NCBI GenBank assembly: GCA_963402885.1
Contig: OY727098.1
Location: 2,971,001-3,035,000 of the forward strand
Direction: 5' to 3'
DNA length: 64,000 bases
DNA from: Antedon bifida
Lineage: Eukaryota; Echinodermata; Crinoidea; Comatulida; Antedonidae
Shown here piece by piece: positions 15,205 through 52,585 of the stretch (the first letter of the stretch is position 1; each line of letters starts with the position of its first letter). Under the pieces are notes generated by a model, which saw nothing but the letters and a program-made list of their open reading frames with translations, ran no database searches and was not told where the DNA came from. The translations under genes and the position numbers were made by a program.

Positions 15205-15540
15205 GAAATCCTGAATATTAAACTACACATGTTGTGTTTAAATTACCCAAACAATTACTGAATAATCAACTACATTTATTGTGTTTGAATCAGGTGAACA
15301 ATAACTAATTATCAACTACATCTACTATCATCAAATCAACTAATCATTCCTAAATATTAAACTACACATGTTGTGTTTAAATAACCCAAACAATTACTGA
15401 ATAATCAACTACATTTATTGTGTTTGAATCAGGTGAACAATAACTAATTATCAACTACATCTACTATCATCAAATCAACTAAACATTCCTAAATATTAAA
15501 CTACACATGTTGTGTTTAAATTACCCAAACAATTACTGAT
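15205..15540. repeat. Satellite family C, short array
   Basis: About two and a half 139-bp monomers of the same family as the main array, bounded on the left by a family-B monomer and on the right by a 47-bp type A' segment. The breakpoints inside monomers suggest insertion or unequal exchange. Confidence 0.85.
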
Positions 15541-15744
15541 TAAACTGCATTACTGTGTTTAAATTTCTCATACAACCAACTAAACTGAACTGCATTCTTC
15601 TGTTTAATTTTGCCCTTAACAACTAACTCATACAACTAATAGATAAAACTACAATGTACTTTTAATTATGCTCTATAAGAACAGAACTAACTAAACTGAA
15701 CAGTAATCCTGTTTTTCCTACAACCTATTGTTGAGTTGTTCCAT

Positions 15745-16195
15745 AGATAGTTACAGCTCAACAATAACTAATTATCAACTACCCCTACTATCATCAAATC
15801 AACTAGATCATTCCTAGAATATTAAACACATGTTGTGTTTAAATTACCCAACCAATTACTGAATAATCAACTACATTTACTGTGTTTGAATCAGGTGAAC
15901 AATAACTAATTATCAACTACATCTACTATCATCAAATCAACTAAACATTCCTAAATATTAAACTACACATGTTGTGTTTAAATTACCCAAACAATTACTG
16001 AATAATCAACTACATTTATTGTGTTTGAATCAGGTGAACAATAACTAATTATCAACTACATCTACTATCATCAAATCAACTAAACATTCCTAAATATTAA
16101 ACTACACATGTTGTGTTTTTAAAATACCCAAACAATTACTGATTACTCAACAACATTTATTGAATTTATTTGAATCAGGTGAACAATAATTTTGT
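15745..16195. repeat. Satellite family C, third array
   Basis: Three to four monomers of the 139-bp family, starting in mid-monomer after a mosaic of family A' and B pieces (15540-15745) and stopping abruptly at AGGTGAACAATAA, where a 47-bp A' array begins. Confidence 0.85.
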
Positions 16196-16570
16196 CCTAA
16201 AGCAACTAACTAAACTGAACTGCATTGCTGTGTTTAATTTTGCCCTTAACAACTAACTAAACTGAACTGCATTCCTCTGTTTAATTTTGCCCTTAACAAC
16301 TAACTAAACTGAACTGCATTGCTGTGTTTAATTTTGCCCTTAACAACTAACTAAACTGAACTGCATTCCTCTGTTTAATTTTGCCCTTAACAACTAACTA
16401 AACTGAACTGCATTCCTCTGTTTAATTTTGCCCTTAACAACTAACTAAACTGAACTGCATTCCTCTGTTTAATTTTGCCCTTAACAACTAACTAAACTGA
16501 ACTACATTCCTCTGTTTAATTTTGCCCTAAACAACTAACTAAACTGAACTGCATTGCTGTGTTTAAATTT
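16196..16570. repeat. Satellite family A' array, 47-bp monomer
   Basis: Seven to eight monomers built on AACTAACTAAACTGAACTGC followed by a T-rich half ending in TTTTGCCCTTAAC. AACTAACTAA starts at 16204 and 16251, giving a 47-bp period. A' differs from A by a doubled CTAA step and a GCATT segment, so the two are probably related. Confidence 0.85.
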
Positions 16571-16699
16571 ATCCTACAAACAATAGATCAAACTACAATG
16601 TACTCCTAATTGTGTTCTATAATAACTGTACCCCTACACATGTCTAACTACTTGAATGTCCTGTATTATTGTGTTGTCCAATAGATTATTTCTCAACAG

Positions 16700-18225
16700 T
16701 GTTATATTTGCTGTTTTATTTTGTCCTAAACAACTAACTAAACTGAACTGTATTGGTGTGTTTAAATTTCACCTACAACCAACTAAACTGAACTGCAATC
16801 CTGTGTTTAATTGTGTTCTACAAACAACTAAACTAAACTTCTCTATTTAATTTTGTTCTACAACCAACTAAACTAAACTGAATTTCTCTGTTTAATTTTG
16901 TTCTACAACCAAATAAACTAAAGTAAACTGAATTGCTCTGTTTAATGTTGTTCTACAACCAAATAAAATAAACTGAATTACTCTGTTAAATTGTGTCCTA
17001 CAACCAACTAAACTAAACTGAATTTCTCTGTTTATTGTTTTCTACAACCAACTAAACTAAACTGAATTGCTGTGTTTAATTGTGTCCTAAAACCAACTAA
17101 ACTAAACTGAACTGCTCTGTTTAATTTTGTTCTACAACCAACTAAGCTAAATTAGAATTGCTCTGTTTAATGTTGTTATACAACCAACTAAACTAAACTG
17201 AATTTCTCTGTTTATTTTTTTCTACAACCAACTAAACTAAACTAAATTACTCTGTTTAATTGTGTTCTACAACCAAATAAAATAAACTGAACTGCTCTGT
17301 TTAATTTTGTTCTACAACCAACTAAGCTAAATTAGAATTGCTCTGTTTAATTTTGTTCTAAAACCAACTAAGCTAAACTGAACTGAATTGCTCTGTTTAA
17401 TTGTGTCTTACAACCAACTAAACTAAACTGAATTGCTCTGTTTATTTTGTTCTACAACCAACTAAACTAAAGTAAACTGAATTGCTCTGTTTAATGTTGT
17501 TCTACAACCAAATAAAATAAACTGAATTACTCTGTTAAATTGTGTCCTACAACCAACTAAACTAAACTGAATTTCTCTGTTTATTTTTTTCTACAACCAA
17601 CTAAACTAAACTGAATTGCTGTGTTTAATTGTGTCCTAAAACCAACTAAACTAAACTGAACTGCTCTGTTTAATTTTGTTCTACAACCAACTAAGCTAAA
17701 TTAGAATTGCTCTGTTTAATGTTGTTCTACAACCAAATAAAATAAACTGAATTACTCTGTTAAATTGTGTCCTACAACCAACTAAACTAAACTGAATTTC
17801 TCTGTTTATTTTTTTCTACAACCAACTAAACTAAACTAAATTACTCTGTTTAATTGTGTTCTACAACCAAATAAAATAAACTGAACTGCTCTGTTTAATT
17901 TTGTTCTACAACCAACTAAGCTAAATTAGAATTGCTCTGTTTAATTTTGTTCTAAAACCAACTAAGCTAAACTGAACTGAATTGCTCTGTTTAATTGTGT
18001 CTTACAACCAACTAAACTAAACTGAATTGCTCTGTTTATTTTGTTCTACAACCAACTAAACTAAACTAAACTGAACTGCTGTGTTTACCTGTTTCCTATA
18101 ACCAATTAAACTAAACTGTTCTGTTTAGTTTTGTTCTACAAACAACTAAATTAAACTGAATTGCTCTGTTTAATTTTGTCTTACAACCAAATAAACTAAA
18201 CTGCTGTGTTTAATTGTGTCAATAT
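16700..18225. repeat. Satellite family A block with internal ~0.5-kb duplication
   Basis: More than 30 family-A monomers. The variants AAATAAAATAAACTGAATTA and CTAAGCTAAATTAGAATTGC recur in the same order several times between 16960 and 17960, showing that groups of monomers were duplicated together. Confidence 0.85.
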
Positions 18226-18760
18226 ATTATTTATGAATAAATTAAGTCCTACAACTAACTAAACTAAACTGCATTCTTGTTTATATTTGTTCCTACAGTA
18301 AATAACTAAACTGAACTGCTGTGTCTGCATTTGTCCTACAACCAAATAAACTAAACTACATTGTTGTGTCTACATTTGTCCTACAACAATTAACCAAACT
18401 AAACTATGTTCACTTTTGTTTCACAACCAACTAAATTCCATTGCTGTGTTTAAATTTGTCCTACAGTACAATTAACTAAACTATACTAAACTGAATTGAT
18501 GTTTTTAATTGTTTTCCTATACAGAAAATAACTAAACTGAACTGTATTCCCCTGTTTAAATATGTTCTACAACCAACTAAACTACATTGCTGCTTTTAAT
18601 TTTTCCCTACAGTAAATAACTAAACAAAACTGTATTCCTTAGTTTAATTTTGTCCTACAACAACTAACTGAACTGTATTGCTGTTTTTAATTTTTCCCTA
18701 CAGTAATTAACTAAACTGACTGCATTTCTGTGTTTAACTTTGGTCTACAAGAAGATTTAA
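18226..18760. repeat. Decayed A/A' satellite
   Basis: Words such as CCTACAACCAACTAAAC and AACTAAACTGAACTG persist but spacing and sequence are irregular. This looks like the old edge of the satellite complex. A similar decayed stretch lies at 21060-21545. Confidence 0.7.
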
Positions 18761-20566
18761 TTTGTTCTACATTAAATACAAGCTATTCTAAAAGGTCTTT
18801 TCTGTATGTTGGTGTGTGAGTGTGTTTATGTATGGTTAGTAGATAAATGAAACATTGTTAGTAAATTAAAGCAAAACATTTATAATGAGATTACTGATTA
18901 CCTTAATTATTAATAAGCCATTAACTTGTATGTGAAGTGGAGGATGTTTGAAACCACAGCAGTAACTGAAAAAATGAAAAAGCCCATTTTAATAAACATT
19001 AGAAGTTGTCTAAAAAAAAGTTTTAATTTTGGATTTGAAATATAATACTTTACTAACAATTCTCAGATGTGTTATATTACACTTTTCTCACTTCATTTTT
19101 AATTGTAAATGTATTTGCTTTGTATTGGCTTTAGAATTAATTTCACCTGTTAAATTACATTTCTAGTCATTGACTTGGGTGCTTTGTTGTATTTAATTGG
19201 GCTTAAAATTGTTTAATGGTCATTTTGTTTTAACATGAATTAATGTGTATGAAAATATAGACTATTAGTTATATTCAACCATCTCCTCTTTTTTCTTCCT
19301 AAATGTATTATTCATCTTGTTTCCACTTCCACTTCTAGATTATCCTCTTTCTTATCCATTATCACTGTTTAAAAAAAAAACCATTATATTCATAGTCATT
19401 AGTATACTAATAAAACTAATAACATTTGTAGTGCATTATTCATTTTTATGACCTAAACAGACTGTATTTCTGTGTACCATATATTGTGATTTTTAACAAT
19501 GTACCCAAACAAGAACAGCTGTTGGAGAAGGGAAAGCTAAATTGAATTTGGGCATTTCAAATTAACTACTTTTTTACTGTCTTTTGTAATTGTGTTGTCA
19601 ACTAATCACATTAGACATTTTGTTTGATAAATGTAATGTAAATTTAATTTCTAATTGTACTGCTACAATTATTACTATTATCTGATGGTTTAAAACATAA
19701 AGCAATATTGAGATGACCAATTACCTTTAAAAGACATCAAATTGTGAAGTAAGACTTGTTGAAAGCATGAGAAGTGGTGACTGATTAACAATACTTGGTA
19801 CTAATCATAGCAGAGGCTGAAAATATAATTAATAAAAAAAATATGTGAATAAACATTTTTACTTGTAGTACTAGCAGTTTTTGTTTTTTTTATTAGCATT
19901 TTTCCACCTAAATTACCTCTTTATTTTACATTTACTCTATTTCAATGCTATATGTTATTAGTTTGACTGGCCTCATTACATGTCCTACCATTGATTTCAT
20001 GTTTATTTAATTGATTGTTTTAATGTAAGGTATGATTTTAGTCATATATTCAACCATATATTTTCTGCTCCTTCATCTTGTAATTTTCCTCTCTTCTAGA
20101 TCTTTTTTCCATTTGTACCATCATGTTTTTCACTGAAAAAAAAACTGAATACAGTCAACACCAACAGCATTCAATAGTTACTATTTTAAGAAATCTCTTT
20201 TGTTACCACTAGGCCTACTACCATTATTTGGATTGAATTATTATTATTTATTACTTTATTTATAATTTTAAGGAGTAATTGTTATTTTTATGACCTAAAA
20301 ATAATTGTATTTTCATATGTTGTTAGTAACATTAAAACGTTGATTAAGCGTGGGACTTAAAATACCTGAAGTTAAGTTGATTATTGAGTCATCAGAAATT
20401 GAATAGGCTAGTTGATTGAATACTCCAAACCGGACACTAAAACTAAAAATTAATTTACATTATAAGTCATATATAGTATTTTTAATTCGTGAAAATAGTA
20501 TTACAAAATTATGTTTAAAATATTTACGATGGATGCTTGATTACTGATTTAATGCGAAGCTTGTTC
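18761..20566. repeat. Segmental duplication, copy 1
   Basis: Non-satellite AT-rich sequence that is repeated in the same orientation at 21545-22540. Shared landmarks are ACATTAAATACAAGCTATTC (18766 and 21550) and CTCCAAACCGGACACTAAAA (about 20424 and 22403). This copy has roughly 0.8 kb (about 19260-20060) that the second copy lacks. No coding potential is seen. Confidence 0.85.
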
Positions 20567-21060
20567 TAACTTAACTAAACTGCTTTGTTTAATTGTGTCC
20601 TACAACAAACTCCTAATTGTGTCCTATAATAACTGTACCCCTACACATGTTTAACTACTTGGATGTCCTGTATTGTTGGGTTGTTTTATAGATGATTTCT
20701 CAACCAATTATACTTTCAGATTGTCTAAAATATTTACTCCTAATTGTTTTCTATAATAACTGTACCCCTACACATGTCTAACTACTTGAATGTCCTGTAT
20801 TGTTGAGTGATTTAATAGATGATTTCTCAACCAATTACACTTTCAGATTGTCTAAAATATGTACTCTTAATTGTGTTCTATAATAACTGTACCACTACAC
20901 ATGTCTAACTACTTGAATATCCTGTATTATTGGTTTGTTTAATAGATGATTTCTCAACCAATTATACTTTCAGATTTTCTAAATATGTACTCTTAATTGT
21001 GTTCTATAATAAATGTACCGCTACACATGTCTAACTAGTTTAATGTTGTGTCAATAAATG
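20567..21060. repeat. Satellite family B outlier block
   Basis: Four ~128-bp family-B monomers (ACATGTCTAACTACTTGAAT and neighbours) between the two copies of the segmental duplication. They show that the duplicated unit included satellite sequence. Confidence 0.8.
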
Positions 21061-28611: not shown

Positions 28612-29192
28612 TTAGATAACAGATTTATTTACGGCAGCTAAAGAGAGTGTTATAACGGTAATCAATAATTGCACTATACCAAATAAAATCATAAAGAATC
28701 TATCAAGAATCGTTGCAACTTCCATCCATTCGGTGACTCGCTGTTTTCTTTCAACATCCGAACGAATCAAACCACTAATAGAAAAGACACATTTCGTCAT
28801 GTTCTGTATGTACTTTTCAAACATGCCTAATGAATATTCATGTTCTGACGAAGATCCGAAGCTATCGGTTGACGGCGAGGTGGTCATGTCTGCTTCTGTG
28901 ATGAGAACCCCGCCATTGTCATGTTCAAACACAGGATTATCAACCCCTGGGTTGTCTACTTGTTCCTGCTGCTCTGATAGGCCTACTAACGAATGCGAGT
29001 TATCTTTCGTTTGTTTAGATAACTTCGCGACACCATTACGCATACTCAGTAAATTAGCGAGTTTGACCAGTACAAGTGTGTGCAGCCATTTTGGAACGTT
29101 GGTGCTGCTTCCATGGTGATGAATACCAAGTATGATTACTGTGGTTGCCGTACAGATGCCAACTAAGATAATGTTTAATAAGAAATACTGTC
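28612..29192 (-). CDS. Receptor last exon (M3, cytoplasmic loop, M4)
   Basis: Begins at acceptor AAATACAG|GACAG, completing the Gly codon of PLIG in phase 1. It codes QYFLLNIILVG (M3 start), then a long hydrophilic loop with little conservation, then the amphipathic segment and M4, and ends at a TAA stop. The loop is the usual site of variation among subunits. Confidence 0.88.
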
Positions 29193-32100
29193 CTGTATTT
29201 AAAAAAAAAGACATTATGGGTTACGTTGGAGTCCTGTTTAACCTCATTTTATTAATACATCAGTAAATATGTATGCATGGAGAGGTTTGGAGGGGTGTTG
29301 TTGTACGCCAATGGTAACCAACCTACGTCAAATTATCTGAATCCTCAATAAGGCCATTCTGGCACTGGACTGCAATTAAACGGGCAAGTGGCCTAGTCTC
29401 TACAAATATACACATTGTGCATTATGCAGGGGTTTCCAATATCTATATTGATTCTATTACAACTCTATTGCAATTTCCCACATTAGTGACCCACACCTCT
29501 TTTTAAAAGACAGTAATGATACACATAAGTTTCATGTTCATAATGATATAAACATTTTTTTCATGTGAAGTATTATAATTCCAGGTACATATAGACAGTA
29601 TGGTATTTGTGTGTATTATAAGATATGCATTTTGTATATTAATCAAACTCGTACAGACACGCATGATCTTTCCTACACCTGTGTGTTATCATAAAATCTT
29701 CCTCTCAAAATATAGGCTAGGTTAACAATATTAATATTATTATTACCTTTACGCAATTGCTACCTGACGTAAATCATATATTAGATAATAAATAGCTGAA
29801 AAGACAGCCGGTCGACTTACCTATGAGTGGCACAACCTTGGAAGTCGGTGGCATAGTTTCTGCGACTAGAAGCAGAAACACATTTAGAGCCAACATGATG
29901 GTTATTGTCAGGGTGACTTTCTCTCCGGCGTCTGACGGCAGGTAAAACCCACAGAGTACCAGAGCGGATATTAAGATACAAGGGAAGATTAAATTTAATA
30001 AAAAGAATAATGGTTGGCGTTTTAGAATCACTTGGAAATGAAGCGAGGGATACCGGTACTCATGGAACTGAGGACAGCATGGGTAATAAGCAACATCTCG
30101 GACAATTGGTGCACTGACCAGTGTCCATTCTCCATTGGTCTGGAAAGATGTTGTATCACCTTCTTTGTCCGGACACGTGATGTTAAGCTGGTTCTCGTGG
30201 TATACAAATTAGTCCAAGAGCATTAGTTCATAAGTATAGGCAGACCCGGACATTTCTGGTAACAAGCTAATTTTTTCAGGAAAGGTCCAGAACTATGATT
30301 GGAACATCATACTGAAAGTCCTGAAAAATCCTCCTTGTGCTCTCCGAGAAATCCAAGATGGCGTCCAATATGGCTGCCATTTTAATTAGTCTATAACTTT
30401 GTAACCGCTTGTCATAGAGTATTGGTTTTGGTGGCAAATAGTTCACAGTATATACATTCCTATTTGCTCTAACAGAAAATTTGGTCAAAAAATGGCCGCT
30501 ACTACAGTTTCTTGTAGTTTGACCTTTGACCTGGTCTTATATTTCGGTAATGGCTTGTCATAGAGAATTGAGATTAGGCCCAAATTGTTCAGAACATGCA
30601 TATTTATATTTGGTGTAATAAAATATTTTATCCCAAAATGACCGGAAGTGAGGTTATTGACCTCTTATTGACCTATTCAAATATCTTTTACCGTATCTCA
30701 CGAAATATTTGTCGTAGGGCATAACCTTTGGTGTCAAATTGTTTGGAACATATACATTTCTATTTAGTCTAATACACCAATTTCCCCTAAAATGCTCGGA
30801 AGTAAGTTAATTTATTGAAAATTTAAAAAATCAAAGAGCTGCATAGGCAGAGTATATGAATACTGTAGATAAAATCAAAAACAAAATTTTAACTCTTAAC
30901 CCTTAAAACATGTTTTGGGCATAGCACATCATCAGGTAAAGTGAATTGTTACAAAAAGAAAATATAAAGTCAATAAATTACAAAGAACAACTGTCAGTGG
31001 CTAATCAAAGTTGGTTAAGTAAACAAAAGACAATTGGAAAATACCTATGTACATGGCACATATCCGGATTGTCAAAAACAAATGTCAAAGACCCTTTATC
31101 TGCAATTTTTAGATTAGATTTTTAAACGCGACTCTATAGCTCACGATGTCGGTTGGTAAACACTAACTCATATTCATATTTTTTCATTATTTTGACACTG
31201 GATATTAATACTTGGAGGCAAATATAAATGTTTTTAAACATTTTTCAAAATTGTTTAACATTTTCAGCAATTTATGTCGGTTGGTCAGCCGGTAATCACT
31301 AACTCATATTCATATTTTTTCGTTATTTTGACACTGGATATTAATACTTGGAGGCAAATATAAATGTTTTAAAAAAATGTTCAACATTTTCAAACATTTT
31401 CAGCAATTTCGGTCAGTCAGTAAACAATTACTCACATGCAGCCATGTATATGGCCTTGTTGACTTATTAAAAATAACGCATTTTGAAACATTCCTTGTTT
31501 TAAATATTCGTTATATGGTTTATTTATGATAAAATGAGAATGTACCCTAGGTATTTCGCATCAAACACCCATGCATAGACTTTTTTTTCAGATTTTATTT
31601 GGTACTTGTGGAAATCGATGAAAAATAGATTGAAAGACACGGGCAATGATCCCGGTACCTCTCACATATTAAGTGAGTGCTCTACCATTTGAGCTAGTCC
31701 CCCAGTTATATATTTAACTGTTCAAAGATGAAAAAATTATCGCCATATGCCCTATAGCCTATAGGATTTATTATATATTTAAAATATGCAAAAGGGTCTT
31801 TAAATCACTGTAACATTGATCAGCAGCATTTTGTTACAGTCATTCATCATCTGATGTTGCATCTTCAACATCTTGGTGTTTGTTGCTTTTTTCACATCAT
31901 TATCATCATGTTCATCTGTATAGGTGTTGTTGCATGTTTGCCCAAAACAGTTATGACGTTAATTTGTTTTCATCTTTAAACAGTTAACAAGTTAAAGTCG
32001 AGGCTTGCCAGTTAGAGAACATTCAAGAGTGCATTCTCTTTTAAAACAAGGAATGACCTGGTTTCATGCTTCAAAATGCATTATTTTTACAAATAAAATG

Positions 32101-35100
32101 GTCTATTACATTTGTTTTTGACAATCCTGAGTATAATACATGCCATGTACATACTGTAGTGTTTGCCATTTTCATGCGAAATGTATATGACCTGAAAATT
32201 TCATTTTCACAGTATCATAAAGTCTATACATTTCCTAAATTACATAAAAGTTATACTTCTATGAACAAAAATAATTATCTGAATTTCTATAATAAAATAA
32301 TAAAAATAACGACGTGATTTCAACAAAGCACTAATTCGCGTATGTAACGCGAGTTAAAGACGAATAAAGCATTTAAAATGTATTCATGACATCTACATAT
32401 GGGTGGCATTTTGTAGCAATAACATTTCAACCATAACTAGTATGAGAATTTACGTTTCCCTGTTTTTTGGTCATGTCCATTTTTTGTAACAAGTGTTACC
32501 GATATTCTTTGTTCTATCGAAGTAAAATTTACCCTCAAGGTTATTGTTGAAAACAACAAAACACTCTTCAACTACCCAATAAAATGTAACGCCATTTTTT
32601 TGTTTACTTAACCAACTTTGATTAGTTATTGACTTGATATTTTCTTTTTGTAACAATTCACTTTACCTGATGATGTGCTATGCCCAAAACATGCTTTAAG
32701 GCATTTTTTGAAAGTTGAAACTTTGATTTTATCTACAGTATTCATAATACTCTGCCTATGCAGCTCTTTGATTTTTTTAATTTTCAATAATTTAACTTAC
32801 TTCAGAGCATTTTAGGGAAAACTGTTGTATTAGACTAAATAGAAATGTATATGTTCCAAACAATTTGACACCAAAAGTAACGCTATACGATAAATATTTC
32901 TTGAGATACGGTAAAAGATATATGAATAGGTCAATAAGAGGTCAATAACCTCACTTCCGGTTATTTTGGGATAAAATATTTCATTACACCAAATAAAAAT
33001 ATGCATGTTCTGAACAATTTGGGCCTAATCCCAATTCTCTATGATAAGACTTTACCGAGATATGATAAGAACAGGTCAAAGGTCAAACTGCCAGAAACTG
33101 CAGTAGCGACCATTTTTTGACAACATTTTCTGTTAGAGCAAATAGGAATGTATATGTCCTGAACTATTTGACACCAAAATCAATACTCTACGACAAGCGG
33201 TTACAAAGTTATAGACTAATTAAAATGGCAGCCATTTTGGACGCCATCTTGGATTTCTCGGAGAGCACAAGGAGGATTTTTCAGGACTTTTAGTATGATG
33301 TTCCAATCATAGTTCTGGACCTTTCCTGAAAAAAATAGCTTGTTACCAGAAATGTCCGGGTCAAACTCTAATGCTCTTGGACTAAATGAACCGAATGATA
33401 ACGTGCAATTTTGTTGGTCAAACGGAAAGAAAAGTGGGTCAAGTTGGCATGTGCTCTTGAGAATGGCCGGCGTGTCCCAATGTACGGTACCGTCAAACGA
33501 AACGCTTGCTTTGGTCTTCATTATGCCGTTGGTGAAATCGTCATTTGCACTAAAATGTTAACCAAAATATGGTAATAAAACATGAAATGGCCACATTATT
33601 TTTAATGCAGTGTTTCTAATTTAATATCGAACCAAACAGAGATTGAGCCGCATTCTGTAGGAGTAATCGTAGCTATCTTTCATTCTATTTACTATAATTA
33701 TTATTACTGCAATAGTATTAGGCCTATATTAATATTATACACTTCAGTCGTATTTCGTACTAAAGCTTGATTCCAACTAGCGACGCAACGTAACTCAACC
33801 TACGCAACGTAAAATGATGACGTAAATGCCCTTCCAGTAATTGTGTTTGCCCCGTCTGCGTGAAATCAAACGATTTTTGCAGCACTGTTGCGTCGTCGGT
33901 TCTCACTTGTGATTACGCAATACAGCACTTTGCGTCAATACGTCGTTGCGTTGCGTTACGTTGCGTCTCTAGTGGGAACCACGCTTTATACTTACTTATT
34001 GTACATAGTAATATCAGGGAGCCATATTAAGGACGAATCAATCACAGTGGTTGTAATATTGTCGAATTCTTCTGGATTCCAAGTTAAAAAATAATCAGTC
34101 CATTTCTATCAAATAAAATAAATTCACAAAATATTTAATAATGCTCTGAAAGGGTTAAAGTGCTGTGATAGATTATCTAAATGTTTAATATTGTTATCAG
34201 TTCTTACTAAATTAATATCTACATATCACTATATGATGGATATATGCATTAATTCTATAAGGCAATATTAAAAATTGACGAGGAAACTATTACGTCCATA
34301 AAATAAATTGAGAAACGATAACGACGTTTTAATCACCATCAAATACGCCTTGTTTATGTCCAAGTTTATCAATAATGACGTTACACGATTAATAACTATT
34401 TTAGTGATCAATAGTCGAGAGGCAGGCACCTTTGATAGCAGAGTTTTCAGTTTATCTGATTAATTTAAATTGCGGCCTTGGTGCGTTATTACGATATAGA
34501 TATCCAATTCAAAAGAACGCTAACCTTCGAGGTAATATTTAACTGAAGATTCAAACATTGCAAAATGTCGATGATAGCATCAAAAATTCAATCAACGTCT
34601 TTGAAATATCAATCAATCGTTGTTATGATTTGTCATAAGTGGGGAGTAAAACTTGCCTGGATGATGATCGCTCACGATAAATATCTATGTTCTTATAAAT
34701 CATAATTCATCGTATTAATTTTGGTCTATTAATGGAAGGTCGTTGAGTGCCACGCGAGGGATTGCACGGCGTTAAGAGGATTGTTTGGTGTACTATTTCC
34801 ATTGAATTTTAAAATTGATATACAAAACATGATTGTGTATATTGGTGTTGAGAGTTTGTATGGGTTTCTTTTACTCTCGTGACTTGCGTTCACACTAATA
34901 TTTGCAGCAGTACATAAGGGATTGCAGGCCTATATAAATTTCTGCCTATTTTTCCACCAAATTTTACTGTTTACAATGATCTTTGCATCTCAACATTCGT
35001 TAAGCGTGGTTCCCACTAGAACGCAACGCAGCGACGTATCGACGCAAAGTGTTGTATTGCGTAATCACAAGTGGGAACCGAAGACACAATAGTGCTGGAA

Positions 35101-38100
35101 ACATCGCAGGTTTGATTTCACGCAGGCGAACACAATTATTAGAAGGGCATTTGCTTACGTTGCGTAAATTGCGTTACGTTGCGTCGCTAGTGGGAACCAA
35201 GCTTAACTGTCGAAGACGTGTAAGTTAACGCACAACTTTCTGTACTCACATTATTAAACCATACATTTGTTGTCATAATTTGGTCCAGCTCATCCTGAAT
35301 AAAAACAATAACATACATTGTTATAGATGCTATATCATTTAGGGCTATCATTCCATTTTGTTCATAACTTTAAATGAAGTAGAAACCTAATATTTTGGGG
35401 AAAAAATCGACTACTAAAATGATTGCATTACGATTGAAATAAACTAAATTGATTCATATTGTTTTAATTTCAACTGTAGAATTTTGTTGTCACGTTTAAT
35501 ATTTAATAGAGGTGTCTAGAATATAAACTATTGACCAATCAGAAAAGCTAACACGTCAAAATGGCCACCAACCACGTGATCCTTTGAGCAAACAAGCGAT
35601 TGAACAACCTAACCAATCATCAACATGAACGAATCCACGTGATTGATTTAACCAATCACCACCTACCATATCTACGAGCTGAACGACCGTGAGGGACATT
35701 TCAAGGTGAATTGTTTTGGCATAGTTTTGAACGGGACGAACGTCCTTACTGTACCCATCCAGTAACCGATCCACTAGCCTAGCTTCTTCAAAGTCATTTA
35801 CAGCATCTGTGGAAGAATAATAATGAAATACCAACTTCTAATCAATATATCTGTATAGAAATGAATTACGAATGATAAAGTATTTATTTTAGGTAAATGA
35901 TGATTAAGAAATATTGAAATATGTATTATTATTTTTGTAACTTCACAATCTATTATATTATAAAAGTACTATCAACAATTTCTACCGAAATACAAAGATA
36001 TGAGTTGTGGGCTTAGCATTAATGGAATTGCTAATGGTTTAGAAGCCTAATGATGCATAAATACACAACAACAACATTTAAGAGCAACATTGTGACAAGT
36101 GTATTTGGTGCTAAAGAGAGTTATAACCATTATTAAATCATCATACACTTATCGATGACTCGCGTTTAAATAACAAACCAAAGATGTATACAGGTTATAA
36201 TAACAATCTGGAAAATAGATAGCCATTGATTGTTATTGGTAGACTCTAAACAATGAATTATCTAAGAGTTGGTTCAATATCCATTAATCCTTTCAAGTGG
36301 TCAATGCGAGTCACGTGTCACGTAATCAAGGCACGCTTATGGCTTTCTATTTAATCAACATTACATCTTGTCGCCGCATTAGGGCGTGTCAGGCCAGCCT
36401 CTTGACAACCACTTGAGCAATATTCCAACGTTAAATCTTAATTCCATATTTTTTTCGGCGATTATACAATCAATTATGAATATTAAATGACAATTGATTT
36501 TGGTTGGTGAGAGCTTTTATAGTATGTAGGTAAGGTGTTTTAAGTTTTCACAAAAGTATTTAGTAGCAATACATTATTAAATGGTGAATAAGTATCATAT
36601 AAAGTTTTAGCATATGTCCTTAATAATAGAGATTACTATAACGATATTGATTATGTCTACATCATGACTATGTATTAATATGACGGTAGAAATTGTAAGA
36701 TTAAATACGCAATGTTTGGTCCCGAAATTTCCCAAAATAGGATCATGGGGTCGCGGTCAAAAAAGGTTGCGGAACGCTGCTTTATAATATATATTTTTTA
36801 ATTATTTATAACAATGTTATTGAAATATTGGTCCAAAATACTGTTCCCCCACCAGTACTTCCAACAACAAAAACAGACACAAAGTAAATATACATCATAC
36901 GGTATATTATTATTGCTTATTTGTCTCCATTTTTGTTTTCCTGTTTTAAAATTATGAATGCAATTCAGCCTTTGTTGTCATAGTAATTGTTTTACAAATT
37001 GAGTTTTTGTTGAAATAAATAAAAATAATTATTTGGAATTACAAATTGGAATAACATAATATAAGGTAATCATCTGCATGATATAAAGAAAAATTATAAA
37101 TGAAAATGTGGAAATATAAAATCATACTTTTTAATTTTAAACAAAATGTTAGTTTCTGATTTATTATACCACGATTGAAACAAGAGACAGCCATCATTGT
37201 TAAGTATATATTGGGTAATAATGTAAAAAAATCTATAATTTGCTTCCGGTGTGTTTATATTGCAAATTAGATGCTCGGTGCTCTTGTCTTTGTCTTTGTT
37301 TCCTTGGTTGCAATGTCTTCTTGTCATTGTGGATAAATAAAGCAATTGTAGATATTATAAACTAATTACTGTACCGTACCTATTTGAATTAACGCCTCCC
37401 TCGAATAAGCGCCCCGTAGAACATCATTAGGAATAAACGCTAGAGGGTACTCCGAGAGTACAAACCTCCGCCTACTGTAAAATTCCCCTACATAAAATGC
37501 CCCCTGAATATTTTTTTTTACATTTTTTTTTATTAGTTTAAATGTGTAAATATGCTAACTGCACACTACAAAGTTGTGGATGACAGTGTGGTGTAATGGT
37601 TATGTATCCAGCCTCCACAGTTGAGATCGCTGGTTCAAGTCCCACTGAGGGTTTTTTTTTTTTATTATTTTTTTATTTCTTTTTTTTTTTTTTTTTGTGG
37701 ACCTTGATCTTTGACCCTGACCCTTCAAAATTTAACCACAATTATATGATGTGTCATTGATCATTGTGGCTAAGTTTGGTGAGAATCGGATAAAAACTGT
37801 GGTCTCTAGGCAGTAAAATAGTTTTTTGTTAGTTGTGACCTTGACCTATGACCTTTTCCCCTCAAATTCGAACTCGTCCGAGCTTTTGGGGCATAGATCA
37901 TTGTTGCCAAATTTGGTGAGAATCGGATAAAAACTGTGGCCTCCAAGCTGTTCACAGACACACACACAAACACACACAGACACACACAAACATACAGGGG
38001 TGAAAACATAACCTCCTTGGCGGAGGTAATAAACGCCCCCTCGAATAAACGTTTATTTATTTAATTTCATTTGTTTGACAAAAAACGTCTGGGCCTTCTA

Positions 38101-38890
38101 AAGAGACAATGAATCAGCTTAAAATTTACGACAATATAATACAGTACAAACAAAAATTATTGTCTCGAATAAACTACCCACACATGCATATATACATAAT
38201 AATTTATTGTTTTACAACACATTTCTATTTGTAGTAGAATGTATTGATCGACATGAACTACAATTTACCAAGAAATTTGATACAATGTTTGCTATATTTT
38301 TATTTTATTATTTTTTACTATCTGTTATTCATTTATTCAAATAAATGCGGTATGTTTAAAAGCAGGCCTATACTTGGAAGAAACATTTAATATAAAAGGG
38401 ATGTCTTAGAAGGAATTATTAATAATTTTTCAGCAATGATTTAAATCTAACCATCAACAAATTTTTGAAATAATTTAAGACAGTCCCATGGGTTTTAGGT
38501 GAATCAAAACATTTAACTAATAATAACACTCAAGTTGAAACTACAGATTCAAAATAATGTGAATCATGAATAAGAAGCACATGAATAGACTTACAGTTTT
38601 AACATTTTGAATAGGTGGCGTCCTTTTAAGGTTTTCAATTACAATGATTTATGGAATAGTTATAGTAGTGTCTAACACCACTTCCCTTAGTGGAACAACC
38701 AATTTTCTTCCATCAGATCATGGAGTAAAGAATATTCTCTACTCCATGATCGATCAGATATCACTAAAATAAATAATAATAAATTACGGTACTTACCTAC
38801 AGAGAACCAAGTAAAATACAATAGAACTAAAAACAATGTAAAAAATTCCGATTTAAAACATCTTAAAAGTACCACCAGAAGTGTCATCAT
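28612..38890 (-). CDS. Nicotinic acetylcholine receptor alpha-type subunit, exon 5 split by a transposable element
   Basis: Pentameric ligand-gated cation channel subunit. Exons, in gene order: 38797-38890 (signal peptide), 35667-35806, 35250-35294, 33996-34105, exon 5 as 33385-33549 plus 29821-30206, and 28612-29192. Sizes 45 and 110 bp for exons 3-4 match the classical receptor gene. All introns start GT and end AG, and phases agree. Without the inserted element the frame is continuous and gives 506 residues, normal for the family. Visible features: WLPDITMYN (loop A region), Cys-loop C164-C178 with 13 residues between, vicinal cysteines 228-229 in YYPCCP (alpha type), GEKVTL before M2 (cation-type), LPSDAGEK, PLIG at the M2-M3 junction, about 130-residue cytoplasmic loop, and M4 preceded by EVATILDRFFM. 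The loop B tryptophan (GSW) is Phe here (GSF). As the sequence stands, the element breaks the reading frame unless it is spliced out. Confidence 0.88.
31145..31372. repeat. Two direct ~90-bp repeats in the foldback element
   Basis: ATGTCGGTTGGT followed by CACTAACTCATATTCATATT and ATTAATACTTGGAGGCAAAT occurs at 31145 and 31274, with a degraded third start near 31407. The repeats sit in the left half only, in sequence that the right arm lacks. Confidence 0.8.
31632..31703 (-). tRNA. tRNA-Ile(AAT)-like sequence, probably a pseudogene or SINE head
   Basis: The 72-nt minus-strand sequence folds as a cloverleaf. A 7-bp acceptor stem (GGGGGAC with GTCTTTC, three G-U pairs), T8-A9, and a perfect 4-bp D stem GCTC/GAGC are present. 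So are a perfect 5-bp anticodon stem CTCAC/GTGAG with loop TTAATAT (anticodon AAT) and a 4-of-5-bp T stem. The T loop ATCATTG departs from the required TTCRANT form, so B-box function is doubtful. Its position inside a mobile element argues for a tRNA-derived insertion, not a cellular tRNA gene. Confidence 0.5.
33764..33985. mobile_element. MITE, family 'AGCGTGGTTCC', copy 1
   Basis: A 222-bp non-coding element with inverted termini (AGCTTGATTCCAACTAG and CTAGTGGGAACCACGCT) and internal CpG-rich ACGCAACGTAACGCAAC-type runs. It lies in receptor intron 4 and its edge is only 10 bp from the exon 4 splice donor at 33995. Flanks are TAA/TTA. Copies at 35003 and 57553 match along the length. Confidence 0.85.
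35003..35203. mobile_element. MITE, family 'AGCGTGGTTCC', copy 2
   Basis: A 201-bp element starting AGCGTGGTTCCCACTAG and ending CTAGTGGGAACCAAGCT, flanked by TTA and TAA. It lies in receptor intron 3, 46 bp from exon 3, and is inverted relative to copy 1 in its internal part. Confidence 0.85.
36722..36780. repeat. Short dispersed repeat with GGTTGCGGAACGCTGC
   Basis: The segment with AAAATAGGATCATGGGGTCG and GGTCAAAAAAGGTTGCGG occurs here and, partly and inverted, at 50612-50660. This indicates a dispersed repeat; its family is unknown to me. Confidence 0.6.
37390..37520. repeat. Repeat with CCTCGAATAAGCGCCCC words, split by a SINE
   Basis: The phrase ACGCCTCCCTCGAATAAGCG at about 37391 reappears as ACGCCCCCTCGAATAAACG just after the SINE tail (38033), suggesting an older repeat that was interrupted by the younger tRNA-related element. 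Confidence 0.45.
37582..38030 (+). mobile_element. tRNA-related SINE with dimeric body and hairpin tail
   Basis: The head (37582-37651) has pol III-type boxes: A-like TGGTGTAATGG and a perfect B box GGTTCAAGTCC. The cloverleaf is degraded, with about 5 acceptor pairs. A T-rich run follows, then two related body units (about 37697-37826 and 37834-37960), each with GACCTTGACC-like words and TTTGGTGAGAATCGGATAAA. After these come an (ACAC)n tract and a terminal hairpin ACCTCCTTGGCGGAGGT. It sits in receptor intron 1. SINE-like repeats with this general ending are common in marine invertebrate genomes as far as I recall. Confidence 0.7.
38716..38751. repeat. Perfect 12-bp hairpin arms in receptor intron 1
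   Basis: GATCATGGAGTA and TACTCCATGATC are separated by 12 bp, 46 bp below the signal-peptide exon. No function is evident. Confidence 0.6.
38797..38890 (-). CDS. Receptor first exon (signal peptide)
   Basis: Opens with MMTLLVVLLRC, is strongly hydrophobic to residue 30, and ends at donor GTAG|GTAAGT in phase 1. Its phase joins exactly to the exon coding DAVNDFEEARLVDRLL, the mature N-terminus. The link to the rest of the gene rests on phase, strand and the typical signal-peptide-only first exon. Confidence 0.75.
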
Positions 38891-40000: not shown

Positions 40001-42670
40001 TCATGTTTCTTGTTCTATTGGTCGTATAAGAATGTCATGAATCTGTAAAAAAAAAGAAAACATTGCAACTCTCTGTGGTTGTCGATGGGAAACAAAGTGT
40101 TTCTTAAAATAAATTGTAGGCCTATAATATCATAATTCTACAATATCTCTTTTGGGAGTAAAAAAATGAGCCGGTGGTATGTGGATCCGCACGCTTGAAT
40201 AATTAAAACTGCAGTGCTATCTTTATAATGACATTATCTTAAGATTGGACCTGGCTGACATTTGCATTATTTCAGGAAATCAGGATTTTGAAAACTTGTT
40301 AATTCTTAGTAAATGTTTTTGTATGATGGTCAACCTAAAAATACAGGGACATTGTGAATTGAACTTTTTAGTAAATGAACAGTCATTGGGAAAATAACTT
40401 ATTATAGTGAATCATTAACTAGTCTCTTTTTGTTTGTCTATTTATTTATTTAACTTTGCTTTACACGGGTAGTTCTAACAGCAGTACAGCTGACTTGAAG
40501 TTCACCTTTTAATCTGGGCCTATAGAGTATATGAAATCGGTGTAGGTCCTATGTAAGTGAAAATTAATACCTGACAATAAGAAGGAGCATGTAAAGCATG
40601 AACCAAAGAGTTTGCGATATCATCAGCTTCAAGAGTCTAAAAAATTAAGCGATACGTTACGAAATGATAGGCCTATGCTCGCTGCACAAAAATAAATACA
40701 GTAGCTATGTCCCTTCATAGTCAATCTGGAAGTAACATTGGCATTACCTTCATTTGGTTGTATAGGCCTATTTCATTCCCCTTTTCGTCTCCATGTCTTC
40801 TGATTGCAAACTCTGTTTTTACTATTCCCGGAGAAATGCTCTACACAAAAATGACATTTCCAAGTTCAATATGTTATTGAAAATCTCATTGATACAAAAT
40901 AAACTTGACAATGAAATGGATGGAGATAATTCTTATTAGAGACGTGAGTCTGTTCAACATGAACTCACCGTGACCCTAATTTTAGATTTCTTTTCATATA
41001 GTTCTTGGCGAAGTACTTCCGTCATGGCTGTAACCATATGCTTTGTTCCAGCGTAAAATCCTGGACCAAATACTCGATGTCCAGTTAAACTGTCATACAA
41101 AATATAGTTTTAATTACCAACTGGTTGGAATGTCTGAGCAGGAGAGATTTCTATTCTAATCTTGATGACATAGGCCTATAATGCCAAAAAGTGAGTCAAA
41201 GAGTTAGTGTCTGGAGCTATTACAGATACCGTACCGCGAGAACGACATTTTAGATGTGATATACTGTTGGGCCTACATTAGTTTGGGTTCCAGACGGAGT
41301 TTTGACTTAATACTAGTAAAAAGATATATATTTTGGCACATGTGGCGTTTCATACGTTTACTACCGAATTCAGGTTCAGACAAACATCGAAAAGCCTCGA
41401 AATAACTACAGAGACTTGGGGCAAGTCTAGGCCTACATGTTTGTTTGCCTGCCTGTACTTTATCACGCATACCTGTTAATGTGAAATATGTGACCGTCGT
41501 CTATCCCTTTCTCTGTCATTTGGTAAATAGACTCTCTTGTACAGATGGCAAGAGCCATCACGTTTACCTAAAGTATAAACAATAATAATGTTTGTTGTAG
41601 TGGATATAACATGTACCGTACCTTAACACTTTGCGATATGATTTAGCGACCCTCCCAGTTGTCATTGAACTTGTCTAATAATGTAGGCCTTTAAACTACA
41701 ACTGCAGGGGGCATACTGAAAAATTGACACAGACTTACTTCCAGCATATACCGCCAATGTTTTGTTTTTCCAGACGTAAGGGCACTATTATCAACCAAAA
41801 GACCAGCGTTGTTAACACAAACATCAACTCCACCAAACTTCTCTTTGATCTCGGAGAACATAGCAGTTATTTCATCCTCTTTACTGACGTCACATTTTAT
41901 TGGATGGAGTACACCAGGAGCATGGGGTTTCAATTCGTCTGCAATTGCCTTAATAATGAGGGATTGTGTAAATAAAAACACAGCATTTCTTCTAAAAAAA
42001 AATTCTGTCTACAGAATTATTTAAAAGTAGGCCTTCAAATTGATGTGAACATAATTTCTTCTCGAACTACAGAATTTCTGCAAAGTAACAAGGCCATATA
42101 CATGGCTGCAGTCGCGTGCTCAAGTTAGTGTTTACCGACCGACCGACCAACCGACCAACATGGTGATTACACAATGGCTGCATTTTAACATAATTAGACA
42201 TGTCCCAAATGGCTCCCCGTACGTTGCTATGCCGCAATGCTAAGGTTTTGATTAGTAGATCTCAACGATCCTTACCGGCGGTGACATTGGTGAAATCTCT
42301 CCATTACATTATCTGTCCATATGTCGGTGAAAATTATTAATGAAATAATTAAAATGACTTAAATGTATTTATCTGTACATTTGGTTTAATAAACATATTG
42401 TGATATGAGATTTTTTGTGGTGAAGATATTTTTTATGAATAACATTTTAGAAAAACAAAATCTATCTGGATGAAATTAGTCAAGCTTACGACTTAGGACA
42501 GTATTGTAGAAGATTTTGGCACTATACCCTACCTTGACTTTATCGATACCATTGTTAGCACATCCTACTACATTCATGCCATGTATAACTAACTTTCTTG
42601 ATATAGCTGCGCCAATCCCTACAGATGCACCAGTTACCAAAGCTAACCGTCCAACCCAACGTCCTGCCAT
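40001..42670 (-). CDS. DHRS11: DHRS11-like short-chain dehydrogenase/reductase, gene A
   Basis: NADP-dependent oxidoreductase of the classical SDR family; vertebrate DHRS11 acts on steroids and other carbonyls. Seven exons: 42533-42670, 41739-41948, 41473-41567, 40969-41089, 40748-40840, 40571-40636, 40001-40042. Every junction is GT-AG and in phase; the protein is 254 residues (human about 260). Motifs: cofactor loop TGASVGIG at 13-20, NNAG at 92-95, NS-x-x-G at 147-151, catalytic YAGTK at 160-164, SPG at 191-193, and the DHRS11-style C-terminal IHDILIRPIEQ. MAGRWVGR start chosen because it matches the paralogues; an in-frame ATG lies 45 bp upstream. Substrate not inferable. Confidence 0.88.
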
Positions 42671-44119: not shown

Positions 44120-46659
44120 TTATGTTGGCCGTGTAAGAATGTCATGAATCTGTAAAAATAAAAACAATATCGTTACATTGCAACTATCCGTGAAGAACAA
44201 CGAGCTGTCCTACAGTAAAGCTATACATTCACACGAAACGAAAGACGGCGCCGTGTTTTTAAATGGAACATCAAAAGATAAACAATCTCTCTGTAGTGAG
44301 GTGTGGGGTAAAATGAGCCGGTAGGTAAAGGGATACCCTATCAGATTTGAATAATACTATTAAAGGAAAAGTTATTCTGCAGTGACGTCTACGAAGTTTC
44401 GTTGCTTAAATTAGAAAACAAATTTACCTGACAATACGAAGGAGCAGGCAACACTTGAACCAAATAGTTCGCAATATCATCATCATCTTCAAGATTCTAA
44501 AGAGAAAAACACATTAAGCTTCTGCTATAATAATTGAGAAAAAGAAATTTATCAGGCAAAATAAAGAAGAAGAAGAATAGGCCTACATGAAGAGGTTATG
44601 AAATGATAGGTCTACTAAATTAGAAAGTCTATATAGTATAAATTGTGAAAACAAAAGTACCTGGAAATAAGGAGCATGTAAAGCTCGAACCAAAGAGTTT
44701 GCAATATCATCATCTTCAAGATTCTAATAAAAAAGAATAATTAAGAAGTATGTTATGAAATGATAGGCCTATACTAAATTGTAAATTCTATATATGTGTA
44801 CAAACACAAATAGCTCTCCCATCTAACAGTTTCCAAAACAATAATTCCAAGTTCAATATAGTAGGCCTACTTGAATATCTCAATTATATTTATTTGTAAA
44901 AGTCAACTTGACAATGAAATAAAAATGGATGTTGATTTTTCTTTTGGTAACTAGATCTCACCGTGACCGTAATTCTAGATTTCTTTTCACGTAGTTCTTG
45001 GCGAAGTTCTTCCGTTATGGCTGTAACCATGTGCTTTTTTTCAGCGTAAAATCCTGAACCATTTACCCTATGTCCACTTACACTGTAAATTAAACAGATA
45101 TATTTAATTAAACTGATTCTCTAGAGATAATATAGGCTAGATAGTGTAGTACCGAAAACGGCTTCGTCTACTGAGGCCTACCGAGAACGGCTTCGTCTAC
45201 TGAGGCCTACCGAGAACGGCTTCGTCTACTGAGGCCTACCGAGAACGGCTTCGTCTACTGAGGCCTACCGAGAACGGCTTCGTCTACTGAGGCCTACCGA
45301 GAACGGCTTCGTCTACTGAGGCCTACCGAGAACGGCTTCGTCTACTGAGGCCTACCGAGAACGGCTTCGTCTACTGAGGCCTACCGAGAACCCTTCAAAG
45401 GCGTGTATGTCTACTTACCTGTTTATGTAAAATATGTGACCGTCGTCTATGCCTCTCTCTGTCATTTGATAAATAGACTCTCTTGTACAGATAGCAAGAG
45501 CCATCACGCTTGCCTATAAACAAGACCAATGTAGTATTAATTGATTGGATACACAATCAGGACAAATTTAGCTGGTCGATTTATTGGACAAGATAGAGCC
45601 TGGCAATGTCTGCAGTCTTGTTTCACTGCAGGGGAACACCATGTAGAAGAACCCGTGTAATGGTCCACATTAATTTTGATTTATAACTTACATCCAATAT
45701 GTATCGCCAATGTTCTATTTTTCCAGACATAAGTGGGCTATCAAACGGAAGATCATGAGCGTTGTTAACACAAACATCAACTCCACCAAACTTCTCTTTG
45801 ATCTCAAAGAACATAGCCTTAATGTCATCCTCTTTACTGACGTCACATTTTATTGGATGGAGTACACCAGGAGCATGGTGGTTCAGTTCTTCTGCAATTG
45901 TCTTAATAATGAGTGAAAATGTATAAATAATAAATAGATAATAAAAATATTAATAAATTCATTATAATAGCTTACAACAAAAAGTGTTTGTGTGAATAAT
46001 AAATGGCCTATAATTTCACGTTGAATACCACTACCACCAACCACCACCACTACCACTACCACTACCGTGCCTTTTTATCCGGTAATTAAACCAGGGAACG
46101 TATAATTTAACAAGGAATGACCGTGGTTTAATGTTTTAAAAGTAATATATACTGCCAGGAGCATGGGGTTTCAGTTCTTCTGCTATTGCCTTAATAATGA
46201 GTGAAAATGTATAAATAATAAATAGATAATAAAAATATTAATAAATTCATTATAATAGCTTTGTGTACCAAAACTTTGCGATGTCGCGATTTCATGTTAA
46301 GATTCGTGTGATGTCGGTGAATACTATTAGTAAATACCTACTACTGTAATTGATTACTTATACAATGTATTTATCTGTACATTGTGTTTATAATGATATT
46401 ATTTGTTTTTGTTTTTGCTTTTTTGGAATTAAGATTTTGTATTACCAAAATTCTTGTCTAGATGAAATACACAAGCCGGAACTTTTAAGAAAGTGTTAAA
46501 CAGATTTAATCAATACCCTACCTTGACTTTATCGATACCATTGTTAGCACATCCTACTACCTTCATACCATGCGTAACTAACTTTCTCGCTATAGCTGCG
46601 CCAATTCCTACAGATGCACCAGTTACCAAAGCTAACCGTCCAACCCAACGTCCTGCCAT
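44120..46659 (-). CDS. DHRS11-like gene B, altered: exon 5 lost, exon 6 duplicated
   Basis: Paralogue of gene A. Exons: 46522-46659, 45692-45901, 45419-45513, 44962-45082, then two versions of exon 6 (44661-44723 and 44428-44496), then 44120-44149. The exon carrying SPG in A and C is absent although flanking intron sequence aligns, so 93 bp of coding sequence was deleted in frame. Both exon-6 versions have acceptor and donor and phase 0 at both ends (21 and 23 codons). Predicted length is 218 or 220 residues with one, 241 with both. NNAG has become NNAH; TGASVGIG and YAEKK (YxxxK) remain. The C-terminus stops early (IHDILTRPT). Probably a decaying or diverged enzyme, though no frameshift or internal stop was found. 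Confidence 0.8.
44428..44496 (-). CDS. Gene B exon 6, distal version
   Basis: 23 codons, NLEDDDDIANYLVQVLPAPS then YCQ, between CTCTTTAG and CAG|GTAAAT. It carries a GAT codon run longer than in its sister exon and shares the YCQ ending with genes A and C. Confidence 0.75.
44661..44723 (-). CDS. Gene B exon 6, proximal version
   Basis: 21 codons, NLEDDDIANSLVRALHAPYF then Q, between TTATTAG and CAG|GTACTT. It is 165 bp upstream (in gene sense) of the distal version. Either may be used, or both in series, since all ends are phase 0. Confidence 0.75.
45150..45391. repeat. 29-bp minisatellite in gene B intron 3
   Basis: Eight full copies plus a partial copy of TACCGAGAACGGCTTCGTCT + ACTGAGGCC, practically identical. 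A single relic of the unit (GCCGAGAACGGCTTC at about 48802) lies at the homologous place in gene C, so the array expanded after duplication. It has two CpG per unit, unlike its surroundings. Confidence 0.95.
46015..46165. repeat. Intron segment shared by genes B and C, with (ACC/ACT)n
   Basis: The block CACGTTGAATACCACTACCA ... CCGTGCCTTTTTATCCGG ... TGGTTTAATGTTTTAAAAG recurs at 49540-49700 in intron 1 of gene C. Both contain an irregular CCACCACTACCACTACC microsatellite of different length. Confidence 0.8.
46152..46270 (-). pseudogene. Duplicated 5' piece of gene B exon 2
   Basis: Copies 45867-45985 nearly exactly: the acceptor side of intron 1 and the first about 35 bp of exon 2 (GCAATAGCAGAAGAACTG on the minus strand). 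It lies within intron 1 of gene B and has no continuation, so it is an internal duplication fragment. Confidence 0.75.
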
Positions 46660-52111: not shown

Positions 52112-52585
52112 CACCAGGGCAAGCATGTCTTGGTACACTGATTTGCATTGGATAGATACAAGATCAAAAGAACCTTTATTTCTCCAATATTAAAAATAAA
52201 AGAAGCGCTCATTTCTAATTACCCACAATACCCAATCCCAATTTAAAATGTTGCAACGTTAGTATGTTTACTGTGGATCAATTCTATAGTATAGTAGTAT
52301 TGTAGTTTTTGACACCAAGTCGAGCATGTCTTGGTAAACTAATTTGCATTGGCTAGATACAAGATCAACAGAACCTTTATTTCTCCCAATATTAAAAATG
52401 AATGAAACGCTCATTTCTAATTACCCACAATACCCAATCCCAATTTAAAATGTTGTTGTTACAGTCACATTCTGAAAGTGGCAAGACATTTTTACGATGA
52501 ATAGGCCATAAGCAGTAGCTCGAAAGAGGCCTAGAACATGGATTTCGTTCCCACCTCTTTAGTATGTTCACTGTGGATCAATTCT
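52112..52585. repeat. Direct duplication at the 3' end of the 468-codon gene
   Basis: GCATGTCTTGGTA...TTGCATTGG...AGATACAAGATCAA and CATTTCTAATTACCCACAAT occur at 52112-52252 and 52311-52457. AGTATGTTTACTGTGGATCA (52261) reappears as AGTATGTTCACTGTGGATCA (52561), the latter overlapping the gene's stop codon. Copy 2 has about 100 bp extra before its last part. Confidence 0.85.

Follow-up and report, generated by a model that had tools for sequence, protein, structure and literature searches.

A putative foldback transposon insertion in the ligand-binding exon of a nicotinic acetylcholine receptor gene of Antedon bifida

The window analysed, a stretch of 64 kb of DNA from the crinoid Antedon bifida, contains a minus-strand gene of a nicotinic acetylcholine receptor subunit, coding exon 5 of which is split by a long foldback element. 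Exon 1 (38797..38890, minus strand, as are all the others; 94 bp) is a prediction from a script that looked for start exons in matching phase; it encodes a hydrophobic, signal-peptide-like N-terminus, ends at the donor TAG/GTAAGT and completes the 1,521-bp coding sequence. Exons 2 (35667..35806, 140 bp), 3 (35250..35294, 45 bp) and 4 (33996..34105, 110 bp, ...SSLIWLPDITMYN) were placed by AG/GT boundaries and homology. The upstream piece of exon 5 (33385..33549, 165 bp including one copy of the target-site duplication, TSD) ends in the loop B codon, and the downstream piece (29821..30206, 386 bp, donor TAG/GTAAGT) encodes the remaining part of the ligand-binding domain with its vicinal cysteine pair and, following it, the first part of the channel domain. 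Exon 6 (28612..29192, 581 bp) includes the stop codon. Joined without the element and one AAT, these exons give a coding sequence of 1,521 bp, i.e., 506 amino acids plus stop, with five GT-AG introns; recomputation thus returned the total of 507 codons, stop included, stated in the original prediction.

The joined protein matches the Pfam families PF02931 (E 9e-60) and PF02932 (E 3.6e-41), and an alpha4 chain leads its PDB matches (E 1.7e-92). Judging from these domains and PDB relatives, the host gene is an alpha-type subunit of the nicotinic acetylcholine receptor. Taken alone, the upstream piece of exon 5 covers positions 102-149 of PF02931, the match extending two residues into the element, and the downstream piece covers positions 151-216 (E 0.00026; its 20.9 bits do not reach the curated cut-off of 26) and also matches PF02932 (E 2.4e-20). 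Counting back from both pieces leads in each case to profile position 147 for the interrupted codon. In the four alignments listed from 314 matches, all of them with alpha4, there is no gap at the break, and they place it, as had been proposed, in the codon of the loop B aromatic residue, which is Phe here and Trp in these four alignments. To our knowledge, the loop B tryptophan is near-invariant in nicotinic subunits, and the gene may have been unusual even before the insertion. With neuronal alpha4 (human; PDB 6ur8 and 8ssz) the receptor shares the vicinal cysteine pair of loop C and the channel domain, along with the ungapped alignment across the break; it differs from alpha4 in the loop B residue and in having four inserted residues next to the vicinal cysteines.

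The trinucleotide AAT borders the element on both sides (left copy 30207..30209, right copy 33385..33387), so that the element proper occupies positions 30210-33384 and is 3,175 bp long. The AAT-flanked element of the original prediction was thereby confirmed, with the correction that its span of 30207..33387 had counted both AAT copies. When fused with a single AAT, the flanks read FGSFVYHENQLN, and the predicted empty site, from which the element and one AAT have been removed, is ...GGTTCATTTGTATACC.... This removal does reopen a frame of the receptor family, as had been claimed: the fused flanks are open, the Pfam domains match and the alpha4 alignment is ungapped. Since a 3-bp direct repeat is expected at two random points of the window with a chance of 2.3%, the AAT duplication is weak evidence by itself; it is the combination of this flanking repeat with symmetric ends and with a frame restored without a gap, all read from the sequence, that makes the insertion convincing.

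The ends of the element are formed by TAGTCCAAGAGCATTAG, a perfect 17-bp terminal repeat identical at both of them, and this 17-mer, with up to three mismatches allowed, has two matches in the window against 0.09 expected. The left arm (30210..31028, 819 bp) and the right arm (32598..33384, 787 bp), the latter containing three degenerate copies of an 89-nt repeat at a spacing of about 150 bp, are identical in 731 of 778 aligned columns (94%), with 7 indels and a K2P distance of 0.063, and their mismatches are partly clustered (e.g., CAGT vs. GGAC). The middle domain (31029..32597) contains weaker nested inverted repeats, such as 31063-31097 / 32096-32130, a tandem 136-bp unit in two copies (31148..31419) and, on the minus strand, a tRNA-like sequence (31630..31704; tRNA-Ile(aat) by ARAGORN, Rfam tRNA 37.9 bits with a gathering score of 29). 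Six ORFs tested from the element gave no Pfam matches. The 64-kb window, which is repeat-rich, was found to contain no further complete copy of the element; elsewhere in it there are three short element matches of 33-65 bp. Copies in viral contigs were also considered through the 17-bp end, which is found at 5 loci, each matching over only 17-19 bp; beyond this end, the matches were short, with E values of at least 0.3, and were taken as chance.

By its anatomy, the element resembles foldback transposons. Long terminal inverted repeats (TIRs), built partly of degenerate repeat units, are typical of FB of Drosophila, the sea-urchin element TU and Tetris of D. virilis; here, long TIRs bound the element and the AAT duplication, supported by the restored frame, lies directly outside them. 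Further likeness consists in a variable middle domain without apparent coding capacity, as described for Tetris in PMC4079207. The authors of that paper give 8-10 bp for the TSDs of Tetris and propose that it belongs to the Mutator superfamily, whereas the flanking repeat is 3 bp here; the likeness considered is one of anatomy.

The TSD length was read from one copy of the element, and a single copy can fix neither the TSD nor the superfamily, for which reason the element was left unassigned. Three superfamilies were nevertheless compared with the site. PIF/Harbinger elements duplicate TAA or TTA; the duplication here is AAT, and if the boundary is shifted, the left side reads TTA and the right side TAA, which is not a direct repeat. 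The 8-10 bp duplications of the Mutator type, as in Tetris, do not agree with a 3-bp AAT. Tc1/mariner elements duplicate TA, and this dinucleotide is present at 30210-30211 and 33383-33384, although an empty site based on it keeps 5 extra nucleotides and shifts the receptor frame.

Possible spliceosomal removal was evaluated with approximate splice matrices, by which GT-AG sites only were scored. Among 31 x 44 = 1,364 GT-AG pairs tested, none restores the receptor, so the absence of a clean splice pair, put forward in the original prediction, holds for these sites. The full open frame is kept by 22 of the pairs, all with scores of at most -2.0 compared with -0.5 for the weakest own intron of the gene; as two in-frame cryptic pairs are just 1.5-1.8 below that intron, some in-frame product is possible. 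The top-scoring cryptic intron at the edges of the element (30256..33346, minus strand, score 3.2) has the donor CTG/GTAACA in the right arm and the acceptor TTACCAG/AAA in the left arm, and its splicing would leave 87 in-frame nucleotides, namely 27 codons followed by TAA. Some transposon insertions in plants and worms, such as Ds/dSpm in maize and Tc1 in C. elegans, can be spliced; they resemble this element in having a donor and an acceptor near both ends, which in our case are mutually complementary in the arms, and differ from it in that the best cryptic splice here leaves an in-frame stop and hence would not rescue the allele. Complementary splice sites as a built-in property of the TIRs were dropped as a feature, because the score of 3.2 was reached in 8.3% of 5,000 mononucleotide shuffles of 120-nt arms.

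The donor at 33346, which is within the top 3.5% of 8,065 GTs on both strands of the window by a crude matrix, could also be joined to an acceptor at 30162 in the downstream exon, with the element partly exonised and an in-frame receptor produced, in which about 14 residues past loop B are swapped for 12 transposon-encoded ones. This pair preserves the full frame, two codons shorter, but its acceptor is devoid of a pyrimidine tract and scores -3.7, the total of -2.3 compares poorly with the -0.5 of the weakest own intron, and the left-arm acceptor, which gives a stop, outscores 30162 for the same donor; such a product is therefore very improbable. There is equally slight probability that the gene had already been a pseudogene or silenced, or that the junction is an artefact of the assembly. 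A single assembly and a repeat-rich window speak for this, while neither the ORF nor any of the five ordinary introns is damaged, and a flanking repeat with symmetric ends is not expected of misassembly.

In vertebrates, exon 5 of CHRNA2-6 and CHRNB2-5 spans loop B. That these genes have one very large exon 5 in common, as stated in section 6 of PMC6354393, speaks against the element as a lineage-specific intron of introner-like origin with non-canonical splice sites; the intron passages of PMC6896357 do not bear on the loop B codon, and the terms "loop B" and "tryptophan" do not occur in its text. Transposon-derived introns with TIRs and TSDs of 3-9 bp do exist according to PMC9860276, and the locus is similar to them as a non-autonomous element with TIRs and a TSD in a coding exon. 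In these introners, the splice sites either come with the element or are taken over from the exon or the TSD (PMC9860276), whereas here the AAT repeat and the element ends supply no usable GT-AG pair; the element is, moreover, 3.2 kb long and was seen in one copy. Efficient spliceosomal removal near the TSD, characteristic of the introner class, is not apparent, a GT-AG pair being absent from the boundaries, and we consider an intron of this kind highly unlikely.

A different way of rescuing the receptor would be SOS splicing. Pairing of the arms, in the pre-mRNA or mRNA, would create a hairpin; this would be cut close to its base by an endonuclease and the ends joined by RTCB, and a part of the mRNA would then encode a working receptor despite the interrupted DNA. 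Long dsRNA may be edited or kept in the nucleus, which counts against this route. The predicted fold of the element RNA agrees with it: the molecule folds end to end, the first base being paired with the last, with an MFE of -1564.7 kcal/mol, far below the -651 to -691 kcal/mol of three mononucleotide shuffles. When 153 nt of flanking sequence are added at both ends, the predicted stem still starts at the TSD, and outward of the latter there are a loop and then five exon-exon pairs; base pairing of the TIRs within the mRNA, as in SOS substrates, is thus found in the predicted folds of the element both alone and with flanks. Of 221 pairs of cut points placed within a few bases of the element ends, 46 keep the frame open and the other 175 do not, so that an inexact excision would succeed in some cases. 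A route by which TIR elements leave animal mRNA independently of the spliceosome has been reported (Zhao et al. 2026, as cited in PMC13247085 and PMC13155455), and the locus resembles the system of these sources in its long TIRs within an exon and predicted end-to-end pairing, with the difference that the putative substrate is known here from its sequence and predicted fold. An intact ORF next to arms differing by 6% would fit long-term rescue, and a young or segregating insertion explains this intactness equally well. The second reading of the original prediction, a mode of splicing that the sequence does not show, would find a possible mechanism here. On balance, SOS splicing of the transcript is, in our opinion, unlikely.

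The best explanation is probably the insertion of a non-autonomous foldback (long-TIR) DNA transposon, which created a loss-of-function allele of the receptor, probably young or segregating; a gene-breaking insertion of an ordinary kind is most likely. The transposon would have entered exon 5 with duplication of 3 bp (AAT), and the transcript of the inserted allele would either be read through for 55 codons of the element, up to a stop, or undergo the cryptic splicing within the arms described above. Both products would be without loop C and the channel domain, from which we infer a null allele. Under simulated neutral decay (3,000 runs for each value), the ORF and splice sites remained intact with a frequency of 0.81 at 0.1% divergence, 0.09 at 1%, 0.011 at 2% and 0.0007 at 3%. 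A gene without function could accordingly have kept its ORF intact only if young, and this points to an insertion that is either young or still segregating with a working allele, its youth resting only on the intact host ORF. In the earlier interpretation, the foldback insertion in the loop B codon is therefore well supported, and the recent knockout is the likeliest reading, reached by inference.

If the arms, with their K2P distance, had been identical when the element inserted, too much time would have passed for survival of an unselected ORF, and an old event with a surviving ORF would be an argument for selection persisting through the insertion. The clustered arm differences suggest instead a divergence preceding the insertion, which a single copy cannot decide, and the arm divergence was for this reason abandoned as a clock. 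It is quite unlikely, in our estimation, that the insertion is old, with the hairpin routinely removed from the mRNA without the spliceosome and the receptor kept under selection; if this were true, a 3.2-kb transposon would persist inside a functional receptor gene, in its ligand-binding exon, as a natural SOS-spliced "intron" of long standing.

At this locus, the two junctions can be read together with the flanking repeat and a complete host ORF. The long paired ends make the element a good natural test of transposon removal from animal mRNA, and RNA of a carrier would directly reveal any spliceosome-free excision of hairpin transposons in wild animals. The locus also bears on whether an interrupted gene can remain under selection, and on whether imprecise excision at a ligand-binding residue yields receptor variants. 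The length of 1,521 bp results from 10 of the 46 open-frame cut pairs; five of these, which delete exactly the element and one AAT, give FGSFVYHENQL, and in the remaining five, one or two residues are changed at this site.

On the minus strand of the window, one nicotinic acetylcholine receptor subunit gene was found, consisting of six exons (38890-38797, a prediction obtained by searching for a phase-matched start exon; 35806-35667; 35294-35250; 34105-33996; 33549-29821; 29192-28612), with GT-AG at all five ordinary introns. Exon 5 is broken at 30210-33384 by a foldback element, and AAT abuts both sides. Removal of the element and one AAT leaves a coding sequence of 1,521 bp (506 codons and a stop), which reproduces the exon sum of the original prediction, and both Pfam receptor domains are recognised in the joined protein, PF02931 at E 9e-60 and PF02932 at E 3.6e-41. 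The junction proposed there is also present in the sequence, both AAT copies being counted in its coordinates. Most likely, this is a null allele, which would have arisen through insertion of a non-autonomous TIR element into exon 5.

The upstream exon 5 piece with its read-through, scanned alone, matched PF02931 positions 102-149 (E 2.7e-14), the match extending two residues into the element. The downstream piece matched PF02932 and also, at E 0.00026, PF02931 positions 151-216; this second match, taken for the piece alone, has 20.9 bits and falls short of the 26-bit cut-off. Counting back from either piece gives profile position 147 for the broken codon. This codon (Phe) sits under the loop B Trp of the alpha4 alignments, and the break does fall, as had been claimed, in the aromatic codon of this ligand-binding segment. 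Exon 5 of the vertebrate genes CHRNA2-6/CHRNB2-5 includes loop B. A phmmer search with the joined protein gave 314 PDB sequence matches, the best being an alpha4 chain (E 1.7e-92), and no gap occurs at the break in the four displayed alignments, all of them alpha4. Among 221 cut pairs tried around both element ends, 46 give a full open frame, 10 of these with 1,521 bp, and the five taking out exactly the element and one AAT yield FGSFVYHENQL. The chance of a 3-bp flanking repeat by itself is 2.3%. The letters also permit a TA target duplication, but with it the receptor would fall out of frame. Target-site duplications are TAA or TTA in PIF/Harbinger and TA in Tc1/mariner elements.

The subunit (29821-30206 and 33385-33549, minus strand) retains the alpha-type vicinal Cys pair (YYPCCPQF), with a four-residue insertion adjoining it relative to alpha4, and its loop B aromatic residue is a Phe rather than a Trp. 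Because of this Phe and the insertion, its ligand preference may be unusual; the loop B Trp is nearly invariant in nicotinic receptors.

The arms of the element (30210-31028, 819 bp, and 32598-33384, 787 bp) are identical in 731 of 778 aligned columns and differ by 25 transitions, 22 transversions and 7 indels (K2P 0.063). Its terminal 17 bp are identical, and both ends are the sole such sites in the window at up to 3 mismatches. Three degenerate 89-nt repeats, spaced at about 150 bp, occur in the right arm, and the middle domain (31029-32597) has a tandem pair of 136-bp units and a tRNA-like stretch (31630-31704, minus strand; ARAGORN tRNA-Ile(aat), Rfam tRNA 37.9 bits), which by eye we take to be nearer tRNA-Ala with an altered anticodon. 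Since none of its six longest ORFs (64-86 codons) matched a Pfam family at E values of 1 or less, the element appears, as far as tested, to be non-autonomous. Within the window, there is no second full copy; three short stretches of 33-65 bp, at 42083-42146, 46109-46141 and 49657-49694, match the middle domain. The element's anatomy corresponds to that given for the foldback transposon Tetris (PMC4079207), although its target-site duplication is short.

Read unspliced, the transcript would give FGSF, then 55 element codons and a stop, and six AATAAA/ATTAAA hexamers lie on the element's minus strand. The lack of a clean splice pair, noticed earlier, was confirmed for the GT-AG sites tested, none of which forms a usable pair at the element boundaries. 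Of 31 GT x 44 AG sites tested, 22 pairs keep the full frame and none restores the receptor. As the two best full-frame pairs score -2.0 and -2.3 in total, where the weakest intron of the gene itself scores -0.5, low-level in-frame cryptic splicing could still take place. The best-scoring edge pair, 33346/30255, occupies complementary positions of the two arms; its score is reached by 8.3% of shuffled arms, and its splicing would leave a remnant of 87 nt, that is, 27 codons followed by TAA. Spliced transposon insertions have precedents in Ds and Tc1.

In comparison with PMC9860276, the absence of usable GT-AG sites at the boundaries disfavours an introner-like origin. A rival to the null allele is SOS splicing, described as transposon removal from animal mRNA without the spliceosome, with RTCB ligation (PMC13247085; PMC13155455, citing Zhao et al., Nature 2026), which might take the element out of the receptor mRNA. 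The predicted hairpin suits such a process: folded end to end, the element has an MFE of -1564.7 versus -651 to -691 in three shuffles, and with 153 nt of flank added on each side the predicted stem begins at the target-site duplication. The open frame that 46 nearby cut pairs would leave also speaks for it, whereas the other 175 of the 221 would leave none.

In a neutral-decay simulation of the 1,521-bp ORF and 20 splice-site bases (3,000 runs per divergence; 0.12 indels per substitution, 80% frameshifting assumed), ORFs remained intact in 81% of runs at 0.1% divergence, 56% at 0.25%, 33% at 0.5%, 9% at 1%, 1.1% at 2%, 0.07% at 3% and 0 of 3,000 at 4%. The intact ORF therefore suggests a young insertion, one segregating alongside a functional allele, or a gene still under selection via healed mRNA. 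The arm divergence of 6% would favour healed mRNA if the arms were identical at insertion, but part of the mismatches in this single copy are clustered, as if the arms already differed before it.

Two of three copies of a MITE-like inverted-repeat element of about 190-230 bp (33755-33986, 35020-35204 and 57544-57770) lie in introns of the receptor gene. The longest of the listed stop-to-stop open frames in the window (52571-53980, minus strand, 470 codons) matched no Pfam family at E values of 0.1 or less. Interleaved tandem arrays with units near 45, 47, 128, 139 and 247 bp extend across much of 20 kb (1088-21046), and a 29-bp tandem repeat (45150-45391; 8.3 copies, 99% matches) sits in the 40-50 kb region of dispersed repeats.
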